From a virus: a stretch of 31,404 nt of DNA. Shown here one piece after another: positions 14,197 to 29,868 of the stretch. Location: positions 1 through 31,404 of IMG/VR virus record IMGVR_UViG_3300030329_000327. One strand, 5' to 3'. The stretch's first letter is position 1. Each line of letters opens with the position of its first letter. The notes beneath the pieces were generated by a model. It made no database searches and had not been told where the DNA came from. It saw only the letters and a list, made by a program, of their open reading frames with translations. The translations under genes and the position numbers were made by a program.

Positions 14197-14649
14197 CTAT
14201 GGTATTTGTTTAATTAAATTATTATTTAATCTAACTACACCTTCTGGTGGCTCTGCACCTTCAAATGTAATCTCTAAATTTGCGTAATTATTTCTTGTTG
14301 GAAGAATTGAAGCACCTAGATCTGCATCTATTGCTCCAGCGTCTTCTTTACAAAATATGCCACCACCCACTCTTGATTTTCTTTTACCAAATTTATTTAA
14401 CCTAACTTTTAAACTCATTTTAAGTTCTTTAATTTTAATAGAACCCTGAGGAGCAAGAGTGACCAGTGGCACGTTAATTTCTTTACCATCTACTATCATT
14501 TTCATACACTTAGGCGTTCCATCTTCATTAATGTATTTACTTAACGCTTCAATGTGTTGATTTTCTGCTAAAGATTGTGCCTGAACAACTGCATCGTACA
14601 AACCTTTAGTTAAATGATCTAAAAAATTACCTTGTTTAACTTTAGCCAT
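14197..14649 (-). CDS. DUF2589-like protein, diverged paralogue
   Basis: This is a 150-residue protein if it starts at MAKVKQ. That ATG overlaps the upstream stop by eight bases (ATGGCTAA), more plausible than the longer frame starting 30 bases earlier inside the neighbour. It shares the layout of the gene upstream: a helix at the front (KGLYDAVVQAQSLAENQHIE), then VPLVTLAPQGSIKIKELKM and SLKVRL at residues 60-84. These line up with VPLLSIINIPSLCVDEIGIN and FDMEV of the partner. The end is beta-like (YANLEITFEGAEPPEGVVRL). DUF2589 proteins have no settled function. The two probably act together, perhaps as hetero-oligomers. Confidence 0.6.
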   Translation of the reverse strand: MAKVKQGNFLDHLTKGLYDAVVQAQSLAENQHIEALSKYINEDGTPKCMKMIVDGKEINVPLVTLAPQGSIKIKELKMSLKVRLNKFGKRKSRVGGGIFCKEDAGAIDADLGASILPTRNNYANLEITFEGAEPPEGVVRLNNNLIKQIP

Positions 14650-15178
14650 CAGTTGCTGGTGCCGATTTCTGTTTTCCAATACTATTATTTAACATATCTA
14701 AAACCTTCATTAATCCCTCTGGTTTTTCTTGTTTGCCTTTTACTGCAACTGTGTATTTAGCAGAAGTATCTGACTTTCTACTATTTTCTGAATGATGTGA
14801 AACTTTACCTTCAAATTTAGCACTCCAGCAACCCCAGCCAACTGACGCACTTGCAGTAGCACTAGTATCAGTTGAAGATTTACTTGCTGTTTGTGTTGAT
14901 ACTTCCATGTCAAAGTTAATACCAATTTCATCTACACATAAACTTGGTATGTTTATTATAGATAATAAAGGCACATCTAAAGCCACGCTTTCTGATCCGT
15001 CCTCGTATTTAAAAGCAACTGACTTTGTATTACCATCTTTATCCATACCAACCTCTTGAATAAATGAAGCAGTTGTTGCTGCCAATGTTTTCTGACCTTC
15101 TGCTGCTGCAACTAATGGTGCAGATATTAACTGTTCTATTGGTAAGCCAGTAAACTGATTTGCTATTTCGTTTGCCAT
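14642..15178 (-). CDS. DUF2589 family protein
   Basis: This 178-residue protein shows the DUF2589 signature in order: GLPIEQLISAPLVAAAEGQK (11-30), then TTASFIQEVGMDKDG (35-49) and VPLLSIINIPSLCVDEIGIN (69-88) with FDMEV. A Ser/Thr-rich low-complexity stretch follows (SKSSTDTSATASASVG), then a histidine-containing strand (FEGKVSHHSENSRKSD). The C-terminus continues helically into MKVLDMLNNSI. DUF2589 occurs in bacteria and some mobile elements and is of unknown function. Finding two in tandem inside a phage lysis region is unusual. It is flanked upstream by a holin-like gene and downstream by its diverged paralogue. The family call comes from recognition of these conserved blocks. Confidence 0.7.
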   Translation of the reverse strand: MANEIANQFTGLPIEQLISAPLVAAAEGQKTLAATTASFIQEVGMDKDGNTKSVAFKYEDGSESVALDVPLLSIINIPSLCVDEIGINFDMEVSTQTASKSSTDTSATASASVGWGCWSAKFEGKVSHHSENSRKSDTSAKYTVAVKGKQEKPEGLMKVLDMLNNSIGKQKSAPATDG

Positions 15179-23802: not shown

Positions 23803-24591
23803 TTAATTGGAGCGTTGAGGTAGGTATTGCACCTCCTCTTCCACACTGGTAGTGTGACGTGCTACTTTTACACCATCAACGCCTAGTTTTTTACCTTTAT
23901 ACATTGCGATACCTAATTCTTTTAATTTTTTAAATGGAATTATCGGAACAGTTAAATCTTTCTTTTTTTCTTTATCTATAAAATAAACATACCTTAATTG
24001 ATAACCTTCTAATGGTTTGTAACCTGCTTCTTTAAATATTTTCATACTTGAAGCACCTTTAAATTTTTTAGATTGATGTGAAGTCATAGAAGGCACTACT
24101 ACTTTTTTTGCGTTAAAGCCTAACCTCAATGATATATCAGTTGCTACTTCTCCGTTAGGTGCCTCCCATATTGTTGTGTTCTTTTTAATGTTTGTTAAAT
24201 AAAAGCCTGACGCTCTATATATTGTACCGTCCCCACATTGACAACAATCAGAAAACGACAAGATCCACTTTATTTGTGGAGCGTTTTTTTTTATCAATTT
24301 GATTGATATAGCGATACATCTGCTTTCTGCATTTTTAGGAAGCACATCATCAAAAGCCATTCTGTTTAATTCTAACATCTCGTTCCACCCAGTGCCTTTT
24401 ACTAAACCGATTGTTCTTCGTTTATCTAATGGTGATCCGTAAGACATTACTCCATGAAGAACACCTTTATAAAATGCACCAAAATGTAATCTACTGTTTG
24501 GAACAACTTTACCAGAATAGTGATATTTTTTTACAAATTCATTTGCTAGTTTTGCAGGGATAACTTTTAACCGTATATCTTTAACCTTCAT
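23803..24591 (-). CDS. Mom-like DNA modification protein
   Basis: This 262-residue protein is read from the ATG at 24591 (MKVKDIRLKVIPAKLANEFV). The frame extends upstream to 24648, but that part lies inside the ParB-like gene. It matches the Mu Mom family: an acetyltransferase-like fold with KYHYSGKVVPNSRLHFGAFY at 22-41, KGTGWNEMLELNRMAF around 65-80 and SFSDCCQCGDGTIYRASGFY at 112-131. Mu Mom converts adenine in DNA to a carbamoylmethyl form, which protects phage DNA from host restriction. The conserved blocks are present, but I cannot verify the catalytic residues against a structure. The gene lies directly before the terminases, as in several phages with Mom-like genes. Confidence 0.75.
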   Translation of the reverse strand: MKVKDIRLKVIPAKLANEFVKKYHYSGKVVPNSRLHFGAFYKGVLHGVMSYGSPLDKRRTIGLVKGTGWNEMLELNRMAFDDVLPKNAESRCIAISIKLIKKNAPQIKWILSFSDCCQCGDGTIYRASGFYLTNIKKNTTIWEAPNGEVATDISLRLGFNAKKVVVPSMTSHQSKKFKGASSMKIFKEAGYKPLEGYQLRYVYFIDKEKKKDLTVPIIPFKKLKELGIAMYKGKKLGVDGVKVARHTTSVEEEVQYLPQRSN

Positions 24592-25174
24592 AACTGTTAC
24601 AGATCCACCAGATTGCGTTACCGTTGCTATTCTCATTACCTGTTTCACTAAAGTCGTTTTTCTTTGCTTTTTTTAATGCTGCTTCAACTACCTCATATTG
24701 TTCATCAGATAAAGTGAATGTTATTTGTCTAAATGGTTCTTTATCGCCATCAGGTAGTGAAAATTCTTCATCATAGTCGTTGTCAAATAATTTTAAATCT
24801 TCATCTGTGAAACCCCAGTCCATCAAATCGTTAAAGTCAAATAAATTTGCTAAAATATCGTAATCCCATTCACCTACGTTTTTATTTAATCTAATATTTA
24901 ACTCTTTTTCTTTATCTAATGACAAATCAATTTCTATACATGGCACTTCTTTGTAATTTAAATCTTTTGCTACTTTTATTCTTTGATGACCACCGATAAT
25001 TATATTTTTTCTATCTTTATTTTTGTTTATAATTACTGGATCAACAAAACCAAAACGCAACAGTGATTCTTTTATGTTTTCGTATTGGTCTTTTTTTAAT
25101 TGTCGTGGGTTATATTCAGCAGAAATTAAATCATTAATATCTTTTTTAATAATATTTTGTGTCTTTTTTTGCAT
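24581..25174 (-). CDS. ParB-like nuclease-domain protein
   Basis: This 197-residue protein has the ParB/Srx fold signature: YNPRQ at 21-25, LLRFGFVDPVIIN around 38-50 and GGHQRIKVAK at 61-70, the nucleotide-binding loop. A helical and acidic part follows (DLMDWGFTDEDLKLFDND). ParB-domain proteins in phages bind DNA, hydrolyse CTP or nick DNA, and are often coded beside DNA methyltransferases or modification genes. It is encoded just before the Mom-like gene, with an 11-base overlap, so it may guide or regulate DNA modification. The start has little ribosome-binding site. A 46-base AT-rich spacer separates it from the RusA-like gene. Confidence 0.75.
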   Translation of the reverse strand: MQKKTQNIIKKDINDLISAEYNPRQLKKDQYENIKESLLRFGFVDPVIINKNKDRKNIIIGGHQRIKVAKDLNYKEVPCIEIDLSLDKEKELNIRLNKNVGEWDYDILANLFDFNDLMDWGFTDEDLKLFDNDYDEEFSLPDGDKEPFRQITFTLSDEQYEVVEAALKKAKKNDFSETGNENSNGNAIWWICNSYEG

Positions 25175-25220: not shown

Positions 25221-25580
25221 TTATGATTTTTCACGTATAATAATTGTTTCAAATTTTTTACTTTTATGCTGCTCAACTTTTAAATCTAAATATTTTGGTG
25301 CATCGTCCCAGATAAGTTTTTCATCAGAACAAGCGTCCAGTAATTGTTTGCAGCCACCATATAAATTATCTAAATCTAATAATCGAGTTCTGTAACTTAT
25401 TATTGTTAATTTGAATTTCTCGCCTACTTCTGCTTCTCTTACTTTTTTTAATTTCATTTGATTACGAACAAATAGTGCCCAGATTTTTTTACATTGTCTT
25501 TTAACAGCCCAGTGCTTACGATCAAGTTGGTTTCTTGATTCCACTTTATGTGGTAAAGTTAGTATGTCGCTTTTATTCAT
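25221..25580 (-). CDS. RusA-like Holliday junction resolvase
   Basis: This 119-residue protein has the acidic residues expected of RusA endonucleases: LDLDN (D69, D71), LLDAC (D82) and WDDAPKYL (D92, D93), with basic surface patches in the N-terminal half. RusA dimers cut four-way junctions made during recombination and replication, and many phages use it to resolve branches before packaging. The length is usual (about 120). Its start overlaps the previous gene by eight bases (ATGAATAA). An AT-rich stretch with an AAAATATTTT palindrome lies just past its stop. Confidence 0.8.
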   Translation of the reverse strand: MNKSDILTLPHKVESRNQLDRKHWAVKRQCKKIWALFVRNQMKLKKVREAEVGEKFKLTIISYRTRLLDLDNLYGGCKQLLDACSDEKLIWDDAPKYLDLKVEQHKSKKFETIIIREKS

Positions 25581-26399: not shown

Positions 26400-26935
26400 T
26401 ATATGTCCTCCAGTTTTATTTTATTAATTTCTAAACCAAAACTATCCCAGCCTTCTCTTTTTTGTCTTGCAAATAATTCTACATAATTAGGGTAACTTAC
26501 TTTTTCGATATATTCATACATTTGTAAAGGTTTTGTTGAATGTTTTGTTCTCTTTGCATTTATTAAAGTTGTAGCCTGTTGTCTTTTACCGTTTAATATT
26601 TTGTAAGGTAGTTTTCCTTTAATTCCAAACAAACAGTGTTCCGTTTGTCCTCTAAAATATTGTCCTAACCCAAATCTGTCTTTACACCAAGTAATTGTAG
26701 TTACATACCTAAAGTTCCACTCTTCCATAACTTTTAAACCATCTTTTAAAAAATTATTTGTAACCCATAAATAAAGGTGGCAGTTATTGTCTGCTATTTT
26801 TTCAATAAAAGTTTTTAATTTAATTATATCTTTAGTTTTCATTACTGGGTAATGTTTATCTGCACCTCTTTTTATTTTACCACCACCTATTTCAGACCAC
26901 GCAGGATCTGCGTATATTGTTTTATACTTTTTCAA
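26399..26935 (-). CDS. MT-A70 family adenine methyltransferase
   Basis: This 178-residue protein has the MT-A70 catalytic motif DPAW at 10-13 (usually DPPW) near its N-terminus. LYLWVTNNFLKDGLKVMEEW follows, then TITWCKDRFGLGQYFRGQTE and HCLFGIKGKLP. The SAM-binding region near the end (KPLQMYEYIEKVSYPNYVEL, FARQKREGWDSFGLE) is typical of the family. It would transfer a methyl group to N6 of adenine in DNA. The length is short but normal for phage members. It overlaps the replication gene by 14 bases. Protection from restriction or control of replication is inferred. Confidence 0.85.
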   Translation of the reverse strand: MKKYKTIYADPAWSEIGGGKIKRGADKHYPVMKTKDIIKLKTFIEKIADNNCHLYLWVTNNFLKDGLKVMEEWNFRYVTTITWCKDRFGLGQYFRGQTEHCLFGIKGKLPYKILNGKRQQATTLINAKRTKHSTKPLQMYEYIEKVSYPNYVELFARQKREGWDSFGLEINKIKLEDI

Positions 26936-27722
26936 TTTTTCTCTGTGTTAATAATTTTGCTCCACAACACCTGCTGTCTTCTTTTGCTGGAAACTTATAA
27001 AAATCTGATTCATTGCATTTATCGCAGTAACCAATTCTATTATAACCAGTTGCATCTAATTTAAACTCTTCGTTTTTATATTTAGTCGCTGGTTTCCACT
27101 CTTGTTGGTTTCTTACCCATCTTTCTAATCTTCTCTTTATATCAAACGTTTTCTGCATCTCATACTTCATTTTAGTGCCACCCATATTTCTCTCAGTCCA
27201 ATAATTACAAAAGTCATCTATAACTTCAGGAGCAACCATAGGTGTAAATTTTATACCCTCAGCCAAAACTAAATTTATAAATTTTTGCTCTTTATCTACA
27301 TTATTTATTTTATTGTCATTATTGTTTGTTTCTGCACCTGTTTTATTTGTATTCTTTTTGCGTTTTGTATGCGTTTTATCTGCGTTTCTCAAACCTTGTA
27401 ACTCTAAATAATTTATAATAGTTATCTGTGTTGATATTGAATTAGTTTCTACTTTTATCATACTGTCAGTTTCTAGCAACTTCAGGAAGCCACGAAGTTT
27501 TGCAGAACTCCAGTTAAAAGTTAACATCAACTTTTTTTGCGATGTTATAAAACTACCTGTTTTTACTTTTATTAATTGGTTACCTATAACAACTTTATTT
27601 GGTTTATGGTTTGCACTTAAAAGCATAAAAACAAAAGCCTCAAACCTGCTGTAAGATCTACCTCTCGATAATATAGGATTATCTAAAATTTTTCTGTGCA
27701 ATGATATCCACCCTTTATTCAT
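26922..27722 (-). CDS. Replisome organiser-like replication protein with zinc finger
   Basis: This 266-residue protein has the N-terminal winged-helix layout of phage replisome organisers: GWISLHRKILDNPILSRG, RFEAFVFMLLSANHKPNK, GSFITSQKKLMLTFNWSSAK and a C-terminal extension. A polar linker (KKNTNKTGAETNNNDNK) leads to a second helical domain (VIDDFCNYWTERNMGGTKMK). It ends in a zinc finger with C233, C236, C252 and C253. It probably opens the origin and recruits the host helicase, as the phage encodes no helicase or polymerase that I recognise. It overlaps the regulator gene by four bases. Confidence 0.75.
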   Translation of the reverse strand: MNKGWISLHRKILDNPILSRGRSYSRFEAFVFMLLSANHKPNKVVIGNQLIKVKTGSFITSQKKLMLTFNWSSAKLRGFLKLLETDSMIKVETNSISTQITIINYLELQGLRNADKTHTKRKKNTNKTGAETNNNDNKINNVDKEQKFINLVLAEGIKFTPMVAPEVIDDFCNYWTERNMGGTKMKYEMQKTFDIKRRLERWVRNQQEWKPATKYKNEEFKLDATGYNRIGYCDKCNESDFYKFPAKEDSRCCGAKLLTQRKIEKV

Positions 27723-27901
27723 AACTGAACTCCTGTTATATTTTTAATCATTACCCTGTGCTTTCTTGATGGTTTGTGTTTGCGATCAAGCCAACCTTTT
27801 ACTGCTGCTGGACTTACATTGCATTGTCTTGCTAAATATGACATCGTTCTCTCATTAATTTTTAACCAGTTTTTTAATTCTATAATTGTGTCGAAACACA
27901 T
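27719..27901 (-). CDS. Small helix-turn-helix regulator, Cro-like
   Basis: This 60-residue protein is almost entirely a helix-turn-helix: ELKNWLKINERTMSYLARQC, then NVSPAAVKGWLDRKHKPSRK. The recognition helix is likely AAVKGWLDRK. It is close to Cro/XRE-type or small phage regulators. It is encoded directly before the replication protein (4-base overlap), so it probably controls early or replication genes. Its start has one of the strongest ribosome-binding sites here (AAAGGAGGTATT), which sits inside a hairpin at 27904-27930. No matching repressor or integrase is seen, so lysogeny is not indicated. Confidence 0.75.
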   Translation of the reverse strand: MCFDTIIELKNWLKINERTMSYLARQCNVSPAAVKGWLDRKHKPSRKHRVMIKNITGVQL

Positions 27902-28000: not shown

Positions 28001-28333
28001 CTAAAATGGCACACCTTCATCTTTATCAGCATAATTGTTTGAGTTTTTAATTCTATCTACTTCAGACATTCCACCAATCATTCTTTTAGGCTGCACATCG
28101 CCTTTCTCGTATGCTTTTAAAGCAACTTTTTCAATTTCTGCTTTAGTTTCTTTTGCAGCATAAACAGTGTCGTTGTATTCACCTTCTTTATTTTGCTGCG
28201 ATGGCATTGCAACAAATAAACCGTTTATACCTTCTACTAATTTCAGACCTTTAATAGTTAAGCCACTAACTTCAAGATCAAAAAACGCTTTTAATTTACC
28301 CCAACTGCCTGTTTTCATTCTTGTTATCTTCAT
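28001..28333 (-). CDS. SpoVG-like nucleic-acid-binding protein with SSB-type tip
   Basis: This 110-residue protein matches SpoVG: MKITRMKTGSWGKLKAFFDL, LKLVEGINGLFVAMPSQQNK and EGEYNDTVYAAKETKAEIEK, with the conserved GLFVAMPS core. Bacterial SpoVG binds DNA and RNA and acts as a regulator. Here the C-terminus adds a polar linker (about residues 84-104) and ends DEGVPF, very like the acidic tip of SSB proteins (DDxPF) that recruits repair and replication enzymes. It overlaps the annealing-type gene upstream by four bases (ATGA). I infer that it may replace or aid SSB in phage replication or recombination. Confidence 0.75.
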   Translation of the reverse strand: MKITRMKTGSWGKLKAFFDLEVSGLTIKGLKLVEGINGLFVAMPSQQNKEGEYNDTVYAAKETKAEIEKVALKAYEKGDVQPKRMIGGMSEVDRIKNSNNYADKDEGVPF

Positions 28334-28722
28334 TTAACCTCCTGTTTTTTAAAATCATCAGCCTCTACTTCACTGTATATTCCATATTGATACGCATTTA
28401 TTAACTTTAAAACACACCTATCAATTCCACGTTTTTCTGCCATTGATCCGTAGTAATTGTTTTTGCTATTTCTGTTATCTGCTTCACCTACTGATGTAAC
28501 ATTATCAATTACACTACCTTCTTTATCTTCTTTAACCATTGTAATTAAAAATCTACAACTTGTTTCAGATTGATAAATAGGTTCTATTCTGGACAATTTA
28601 ATGTTTTCAATTAGTGCAATTTTAGTAATTGCATCATGCGTAAGTATCCAATTATCGTGGCACTTCCAAACATCTACTTTACCGTCTAACTTATATTTTT
28701 TACCTAGTTCAGCGATTGTCAT
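28330..28722 (-). CDS. Conserved phage protein, possible single-strand annealing protein
   Basis: This 130-residue protein has WILTHDAITKIALIENIKLS near the front, a beta-rich middle (SCRFLITMVKEDKEGSVIDN), then SKNNYYGSMAEKRGIDRCVL and KLINAYQYGIYSEVEADDFK. A helix with AEKRxxDRxxLKL after a GEAD-type strand is reminiscent of the end of RAD52/Sak-type annealing proteins, and such genes often lie next to an SSB. The next gene encodes the SpoVG-like protein with an SSB-type tip, which fits. The similarity is a pattern only, not proof. A strong ribosome-binding site (AGGAGGAAG) precedes the ATG. Confidence 0.5.
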   Translation of the reverse strand: MTIAELGKKYKLDGKVDVWKCHDNWILTHDAITKIALIENIKLSRIEPIYQSETSCRFLITMVKEDKEGSVIDNVTSVGEADNRNSKNNYYGSMAEKRGIDRCVLKLINAYQYGIYSEVEADDFKKQEVK

Positions 28723-29565: not shown

Positions 29566-29868
29566 CTATTTACTTAATTTATCTTTTAACCAATTCAAGT
29601 CAGTCGAACTTACCCAAAATTCTCTGTCAGCACCACCAACCCAAAAGAACAAAGTTCCGTTTTTTCTAACTTCAACAAATTGGTTTCCATTATTAGAAGT
29701 AAAAGTTTCACCGTTTTGTGCTTTAGCAACCACTCTCAAAACCCAGCCTTTTGTTTCTGTATTTAAAAATAATTCTCTATCAGCACCACCAACCCATAAT
29801 CTAAAGTGTCCTGAATCTAATTTATCTAAAAATAAGTTTCCAGTGTTTTCTGTTTGTATTGCTTTCAT
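29566..29868 (-). CDS. Early protein with duplicated WVGGADRE module
   Basis: This 100-residue protein consists of two related halves: LDSGHFRLWVGGADRELFLN (17-36) and VRKNGTLFFWVGGADREFWV (67-86), each followed by a polar piece and Trp. WVGGADRE is identical in both, and the DNA is nearly so at 29624-29650 and 29775-29800. It is the first gene after the gene-free control region, with a strong AGGAG site, so it is likely among the earliest expressed. Each half could be a small beta-hairpin domain. Function is unknown. Confidence 0.65.
   Translation of the reverse strand: MKAIQTENTGNLFLDKLDSGHFRLWVGGADRELFLNTETKGWVLRVVAKAQNGETFTSNNGNQFVEVRKNGTLFFWVGGADREFWVSSTDLNWLKDKLSK

Follow-up and report, generated by a model that had tools for sequence, protein, structure and literature searches.

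A SpoVG-family protein with an SSB-type tip fills the place of SSB in a group of marine phages

Introduction

Can the C-terminal tip of the single-stranded DNA-binding protein SSB be borne by a protein of another fold? The tip is usually regarded as inseparable from SSB. The question is raised by one gene of the window, the whole stretch of 31,404 nucleotides of viral DNA analysed here (IMG/VR record IMGVR_UViG_3300030329_000327). A first-pass annotation of this sequence had read the gene as coding for a SpoVG core followed by a polar linker and the ending DEGVPF, had noticed replication and recombination genes around it and no ordinary SSB, and had proposed that SpoVG may have been converted into the ssDNA-binding protein of the phage. 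The SSB tip is described as a docking hub for bacterial DNA replication and repair (PMC10018359).

Results

A SpoVG core with an SSB-type end

The gene, the parts of its product and its neighbours in the replication and recombination module are the following:

28001..28333 (-), SpoVG-family protein with SSB-type tip, 110 aa (open reading frame list; Pfam PF04026, E 2.6e-15; AlphaFold core like the SpoVG crystal structures 2i9z, 2ia9 and 2i9x)
28103..28333 (-), SpoVG core, residues 1-77 (Pfam match at residues 2-77; pLDDT)
28022..28102 (-), polar linker, residues 78-104, predicted disordered (low pLDDT; length varies among homologues)
28004..28021 (-), SSB-Ct-like tip DEGVPF, residues 105-110 (sequence; kept in relatives)
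28338..28343 (-), Shine-Dalgarno AGGAGG of the SpoVG gene (sequence)
28330..28722 (-), annealer-like protein of 130 aa, probably a single-strand annealing protein of RAD52 fold (AlphaFold pLDDT 87.9; VIA-align)
27719..27901 (-), small HTH protein between SpoVG and the loader (weak HTH/repressor matches)
26922..27722 (-), DnaD-like helicase loader, same module (PHROG 2514, E 1.9e-27)
25221..25580 (-), RusA-like protein, same module (weak match to PHROG 4632, E 0.002)

The open reading frame is real and lies on the minus strand, where an ATGA at 28330-28333, with AGGAGG ahead of it, makes the start of SpoVG overlap the stop of the annealer gene. The SpoVG core read in the first-pass annotation is borne out by Pfam, the protein scoring 56.8 bits against PF04026 (cut-off 29.6), and the annealer-like gene, the RusA-like gene (a weak match) and the DnaD-like loader that had been seen around it are all present. 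In the AlphaFold model the mean pLDDT is 92-95 over residues 1-70 and 85 over residues 71-80, and it is 46-53 over residues 81-110, that is, a linker and tail predicted to be disordered like those of SSB. With this model, the top 10 rows of Foldseek are all SpoVG (2i9z, 2ia9 and 2i9x; TMt 0.66-0.78), and SpoVG crystal structures are the only confident fold matches in the PDB. No OB fold was found, SpoVG being the only family matched in Pfam and in the confident PDB rows, and the protein therefore stands outside the SSB family: by fold it is an ordinary member of its own.

The window protein thus shares its core sequence and fold with chromosomal SpoVG (PF04026; Bacillus subtilis, Staphylococcus epidermidis, Listeria), and differs from bacterial SSB (PF00436), which has an OB fold where ours has the SpoVG fold. 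Its likeness to SSB lies in the end, an acidic-hydrophobic-PF tip on a disordered linker (DDDIPF in Escherichia coli). DEGVPF does follow the polar linker, at residues 105-110, and an acidic tip ending in PF is kept across the clade. No further open reading frame of at least 60 aa in the whole window has an acidic-PF ending. Among the 47 members of our phage SpoVG alignment (A3), 46 match the SpoVG profile at E<=0.01 and 45 match PHROG 27338, a family labelled 'unknown function'.

The tip is conserved among viral SpoVG

A scan of viral contigs with the window SpoVG as single protein returned no relative. Relatives were retrieved by patterns of core peptides that exclude the tip; to build the set, SpoVG alignments were run twice against viral sequences and once against genomes, duplicate proteins being counted once. 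In the first six relatives, invariance is limited to positions of the core and to the final PF, and the linkers differ; among homologues, linker length ranges from a few to about 50 residues while the last residues stay constant. Far from being absent from all close relatives, the tip is found as a P[FWY] ending, mostly after acidic residues, in 54 of 71 distinct closed viral SpoVG proteins, and in 53 of the 65 viral rows that a quick tree places in the clade of the window. It is absent from chromosomal SpoVG outside Neomarinimicrobiota: none of 23 such rows (Omnitrophota, Archaeoglobi, Oscillospiraceae, Calditrichota, Ignavibacteriota) has it, and neither does any of eight from INPHARED. The motif [WF]xK...FFD is likewise common in the clade and was seen in 0/32 of the chromosomal and INPHARED rows counted outside it.

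We further examined 29 whole phage records, the window and 28 retrieved ones, in which only 5 of 2159 other open reading frames (at least 60 aa) are tipped. Set against 54/71 for viral SpoVG, this argues that DEGVPF is not a chance ending. SpoVG is tipped in 21 of the 29 records, 18 of which contain no other tipped open reading frame and three of which contain a second one. In the remaining eight records SpoVG is tipless, and since no alternative tipped open reading frame was found in six of these, some of these phages do without. The other two (G099 and G108) each encode a tipped protein of 209 aa ending DTPDNEAIPF (L383:4423-5052, minus strand, in G099, and the same in G108), which weakly matches PHROG 11717 (E 0.006); as one member of our annealer alignment matches this PHROG at 4e-31, the tip may in these two phages sit on the annealer itself.

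INPHARED yielded few SpoVG matches; the eight that we examined closely are all tipless, and several are plainly bacterial chromosome. Judged by eye from their neighbours, the 'phage' records L004 and L006-L009 look like bacterial chromosome, and counts of spoVG in phage collections may therefore be inflated.

Tipped SpoVG and SSB-type proteins alternate beside the annealer

The annealer-like protein of the window has no Pfam match. The core of its AlphaFold model is alpha-beta-beta-beta-alpha, and in VIA-align its best eight rows are all RAD52/Mgm101 (Z 7.0-7.5, all below 8, over 99-104 residues), with Sak of phage 80a at Z 6.0. Foldseek with this model gave nothing at E<=0.001, so that the RAD52 fold, which is seen in VIA-align rows only, is probable rather than proven.

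Using the annealer as bait, we took 80 of 232 loci, with 68 distinct annealers among the matches listed; six had less than 1.5 kb of downstream sequence and were left out. At the 62 loci counted among the matches listed, the annealer has within 3 kb a tipped SpoVG in seven cases, another tipped protein in 52, neither in three and both in none (Fisher p 2e-7, without phylogenetic correction). When the loci found through SpoVG are added (seven dropped; the annealer side again being the matches listed), the 91 loci divide into 32 with tipped SpoVG, four with tipless SpoVG, 52 with another tipped protein and three with neither, and again none has both.

The tipped proteins other than SpoVG fall into several mutually unrelated clusters. 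One occupant of the slot, DUF3127, corresponds to PHROG 4932 (E 3e-26) and another to PHROG 7364 (E 8e-16), both of which carry the label 'single strand DNA binding protein'; like the window SpoVG they are small tipped proteins, from other sequence families. In the cultured Pelagibacter phage EXVC031P Hodr, it is a canonical SSB, ending EPTEDVPF, that overlaps the annealer gene, in the very position held by SpoVG in the window. The claim that the window has no ordinary SSB holds, and more widely: canonical ssb (PF00436) is above the Pfam cut-off in 0/33 SpoVG phage records, the window record included, and a single match below it, in G093, contains an internal stop. Because tipped SpoVG and SSB-type proteins alternate at the annealer, because an SSB sits there in Hodr and because PF00436 is absent, we conclude that SpoVG fills the place of SSB in a group of marine phages. 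The proposal that SpoVG is the ssDNA-binding protein of the phage finds good genomic support in the kept tip, the mutual exclusivity at the annealer and the absence of canonical SSB, and may well be right.

In one record (G084; loci L036/L117), two annealer-like proteins occur together with a tipped SpoVG and a further tipped protein, an SSB of the PHROG 7364 type.

The same tip on Neomarinimicrobiota chromosomes

An earlier scan of genome contigs with a SpoVG alignment (A1) had found nothing. The scan with the phage alignment A3 gave 58 loci, 33 of which (L166-L198) are of Neomarinimicrobiota (SAR406) type: 30 are titled Neomarinimicrobiota or Marinimicrobia, L168 and L191 'bacterium', and L174 'FCB group bacterium'. 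SpoVG is tipped in all 33, often as DDDIPF, and all 33 fall within the clade of the window in the quick tree. Three lie on contigs titled chromosome (CP070638, CP070787, CP070656), and ten loci examined gene by gene have mostly cell genes as neighbours, including in most cases genes that we take from their translations to be succinate dehydrogenase-like; L196 and L197 look mobile. As the same tip is found on chromosomal SpoVG of Neomarinimicrobiota, tipped SpoVG is not a phage peculiarity, and the part of the first-pass proposal that made the conversion a phage trait is not supported.

SpoVG is far from universal in the phylum, being present in only five of 61 genomes sampled from the phylum to which one SpoVG-bearing genome belongs. 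Phage and Neomarinimicrobiota SpoVG interleave within one clade of the quick tree, which suggests that the phages infect Neomarinimicrobiota. A provirus search with the annealer, run without a positive control, did not find it in 32 Neomarinimicrobiota genomes.

In the Neomarinimicrobiota genome G004, a DnaD-like loader of 304 aa (L368:541-1455, plus strand; PHROG 7498, E 1e-4) also ends DDDIPF, a third tip bearer beside SSB and SpoVG.

Canonical SSB has lost its tip in some SpoVG-bearing genomes

The idea that Neomarinimicrobiota lack canonical SSB proved wrong: it is present in each of the first 15 SpoVG-bearing genomes and in 16 of 17 further ones, making 31. The main SSB is tipped in 19 of them, and SpoVG is therefore not simply the SSB of the cell. 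In the other 12 it ends right behind the OB domain:

Genomes with tipless main SSB: G005, G010, G011, G013, G014, G115, G120-G123, G128, G129

A shifted tip, sought in any frame within 240 bases past the stop, was found at none of these 12 genes. The gene order behind them is common to all, a small open reading frame coming next, followed in most genomes by an open reading frame that we read as queF-like. G005 has a second, tipped copy of SSB on a short contig. SpoVG-bearing and SpoVG-negative genomes alike can carry a second, tipless SSB paralogue.

For comparison, SSB was sought in 43 of the 61 phylum genomes; of the others, G001 and G009 had already been covered and G063-G078 were left out. 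Forty of the 43 have no SpoVG; 38 of these have a main SSB, and it is tipped in 38/38. A tipless main SSB is thus found in 12/31 SpoVG-bearing against 0/38 SpoVG-negative genomes (Fisher p 2e-5, uncorrected for relatedness). In a tree of main SSBs, from which secondary paralogues and the SSBs L249 and L250 of other phyla were left out, all tipless rows fall in one clade of 22 rows; three changes explain them at best, and since the starred branches force only one, the tip may have been lost in a single event.

We also searched 32 genomes with a strict tip pattern (about [DE][DE][DE], hydrophobic, P, F, stop), which misses tips that have fewer acidic residues or a valine. Each genome has at least one true match and the reversed pattern gave none. 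The 12 genomes without a tipped SSB, that is 11 with tipless SSB and G116, where SSB was not found, have exactly one strict match each, and it is the end of SpoVG. Among genomes with tipless or undetected SSB, RecO is kept in 11/13 and PriA in 8/13.

Discussion

By its tip, the window SpoVG very probably works like SSB. We favour, with a probability of roughly 0.6, the reading in which tipped SpoVG is a SpoVG-fold stand-in for SSB that would coat ssDNA and dock partners through its tip, and would be a second tip bearer where it is chromosomal. The beta-sheet core would bind single-stranded nucleic acid, as expected from its Listeria relative, described as binding ssDNA with a Kd of 1.2 uM and no sequence preference, and as not binding dsDNA (PMC4959528). 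The flexible linker would leave the C-terminal end free, and the tip could then dock onto readers of the SSB tail, such as the RAD52-fold annealer of the phage and host proteins like RecO and PriA. In the phage, SpoVG would coat ssDNA and would recruit and load the annealer during recombination-dependent replication.

We propose this coating and loading by analogy, because Listeria SpoVG binds ssDNA and because the SSB tip of phage HK620 loads the annealer Sak4. The six C-terminal residues of HK620 SSB are reported to be required to recruit and stimulate Sak4, and their removal to lower Sak4 recombineering 10-fold and to abolish the loading of Sak4 on coated ssDNA (PMC5928155). The two systems resemble each other in having neighbouring genes for an annealer and for a tipped ssDNA-binding protein (in our case predicted), and differ in that HK620 pairs a bona fide SSB with a RecA-like annealer, where the window phage has a SpoVG fold and a RAD52-like annealer. 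That an unrelated, non-OB fold can bind ssDNA is reported for the winged-helix Sul7s of Sulfolobus, which are archaeal and of yet another fold (PMC8998557).

On Neomarinimicrobiota chromosomes, the SSB tip would have a second bearer in tipped SpoVG, and in the group of genomes whose canonical SSB has lost its own it is probably SpoVG that supplies it. What surprised us most is this chromosomal side, in which the tip has apparently passed from SSB to SpoVG. A more ambitious version, to which we give slightly less than even chances, is that the SSB hub is split in a SAR406 clade of mostly small genomes, SSB contributing the OB domain and SpoVG the only strict tip, and that their phages, or those of their relatives, use tipped SpoVG alone as SSB.

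Several other readings have to be weighed. SpoVG could be a regulator that binds nucleic acid, probably RNA, and whose tip displaces host SSB from its partners or stations SpoVG at forks, with no SSB-like coating of ssDNA. The description of Listeria SpoVG as RNA-binding and only weakly ssDNA-binding (PMC4959528) speaks for such a decoy, as does the tipped SSB retained by 19 of the 31 SpoVG-bearing genomes. However, exclusivity with SSB-type proteins at the annealer fits a take-over better than a competition, and so does the confinement of tipless main SSBs to genomes with a tipped SpoVG, and we consider a decoy unlikely. Rather less likely still is a mixed complex of SpoVG and SSB on the ssDNA of Neomarinimicrobiota, with OB domains from SSB and tips from SpoVG, in which phages would borrow host SSB through their SpoVG: the same genome does encode both a tipped SpoVG and a tipless SSB in which the OB domain is retained, but the spoVG and ssb loci lie apart and nothing indicates contact between the two proteins.

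It is also conceivable that phages acquired spoVG as a sporulation or host-physiology gene, an auxiliary metabolic gene whose C-terminus is incidental. This is in keeping with how marine and gut phage spoVG is treated, being listed with the sporulation auxiliary metabolic genes of viruses of marine oxygen-minimum zones (PMC8940887) and among the sporulation genes of gut phages (PMC10294663). Yet in the window spoVG lies within a replication and recombination module and overlaps the annealer gene, its tip is conserved, and tipped SpoVG replaces SSB-type genes. Moreover, Neomarinimicrobiota are not known to form spores. We regard this reading as very improbable. Acidic tails are common among small phage proteins, but a PF ending due to chance or to the composition of such disordered tails is refuted for the SpoVG family as a whole by the tip counts, with so few other open reading frames of the same records tipped, and by the empty reversed-pattern control, and can hardly be the explanation.

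In the open-access literature searched, no title or passage was found that links SpoVG to the SSB tip. If the stand-in reading is true, a tip bearer without OB fold replaces SSB in phages and apparently relieves the SSB of the cell of its tip, and the hub function of SSB would be movable between folds. It would also provide a testable function for phage spoVG, at present classed with the sporulation genes of marine viromes (PMC8940887), and PHROG 27338 would gain a working label.

Other features of the window

Three further features of the window deserve mention:

23803-25174 (-), DNA modification protein resembling Mom (PF25680, E 4e-52), which overlaps a ParB_N protein and adjoins the terminase genes
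14197-15178 (-), a pair of DUF2589 proteins (E 6e-33 and 6e-12) that overlap each other
29566-29868 (-), protein of 100 aa, internally repetitive around WVGGADRE
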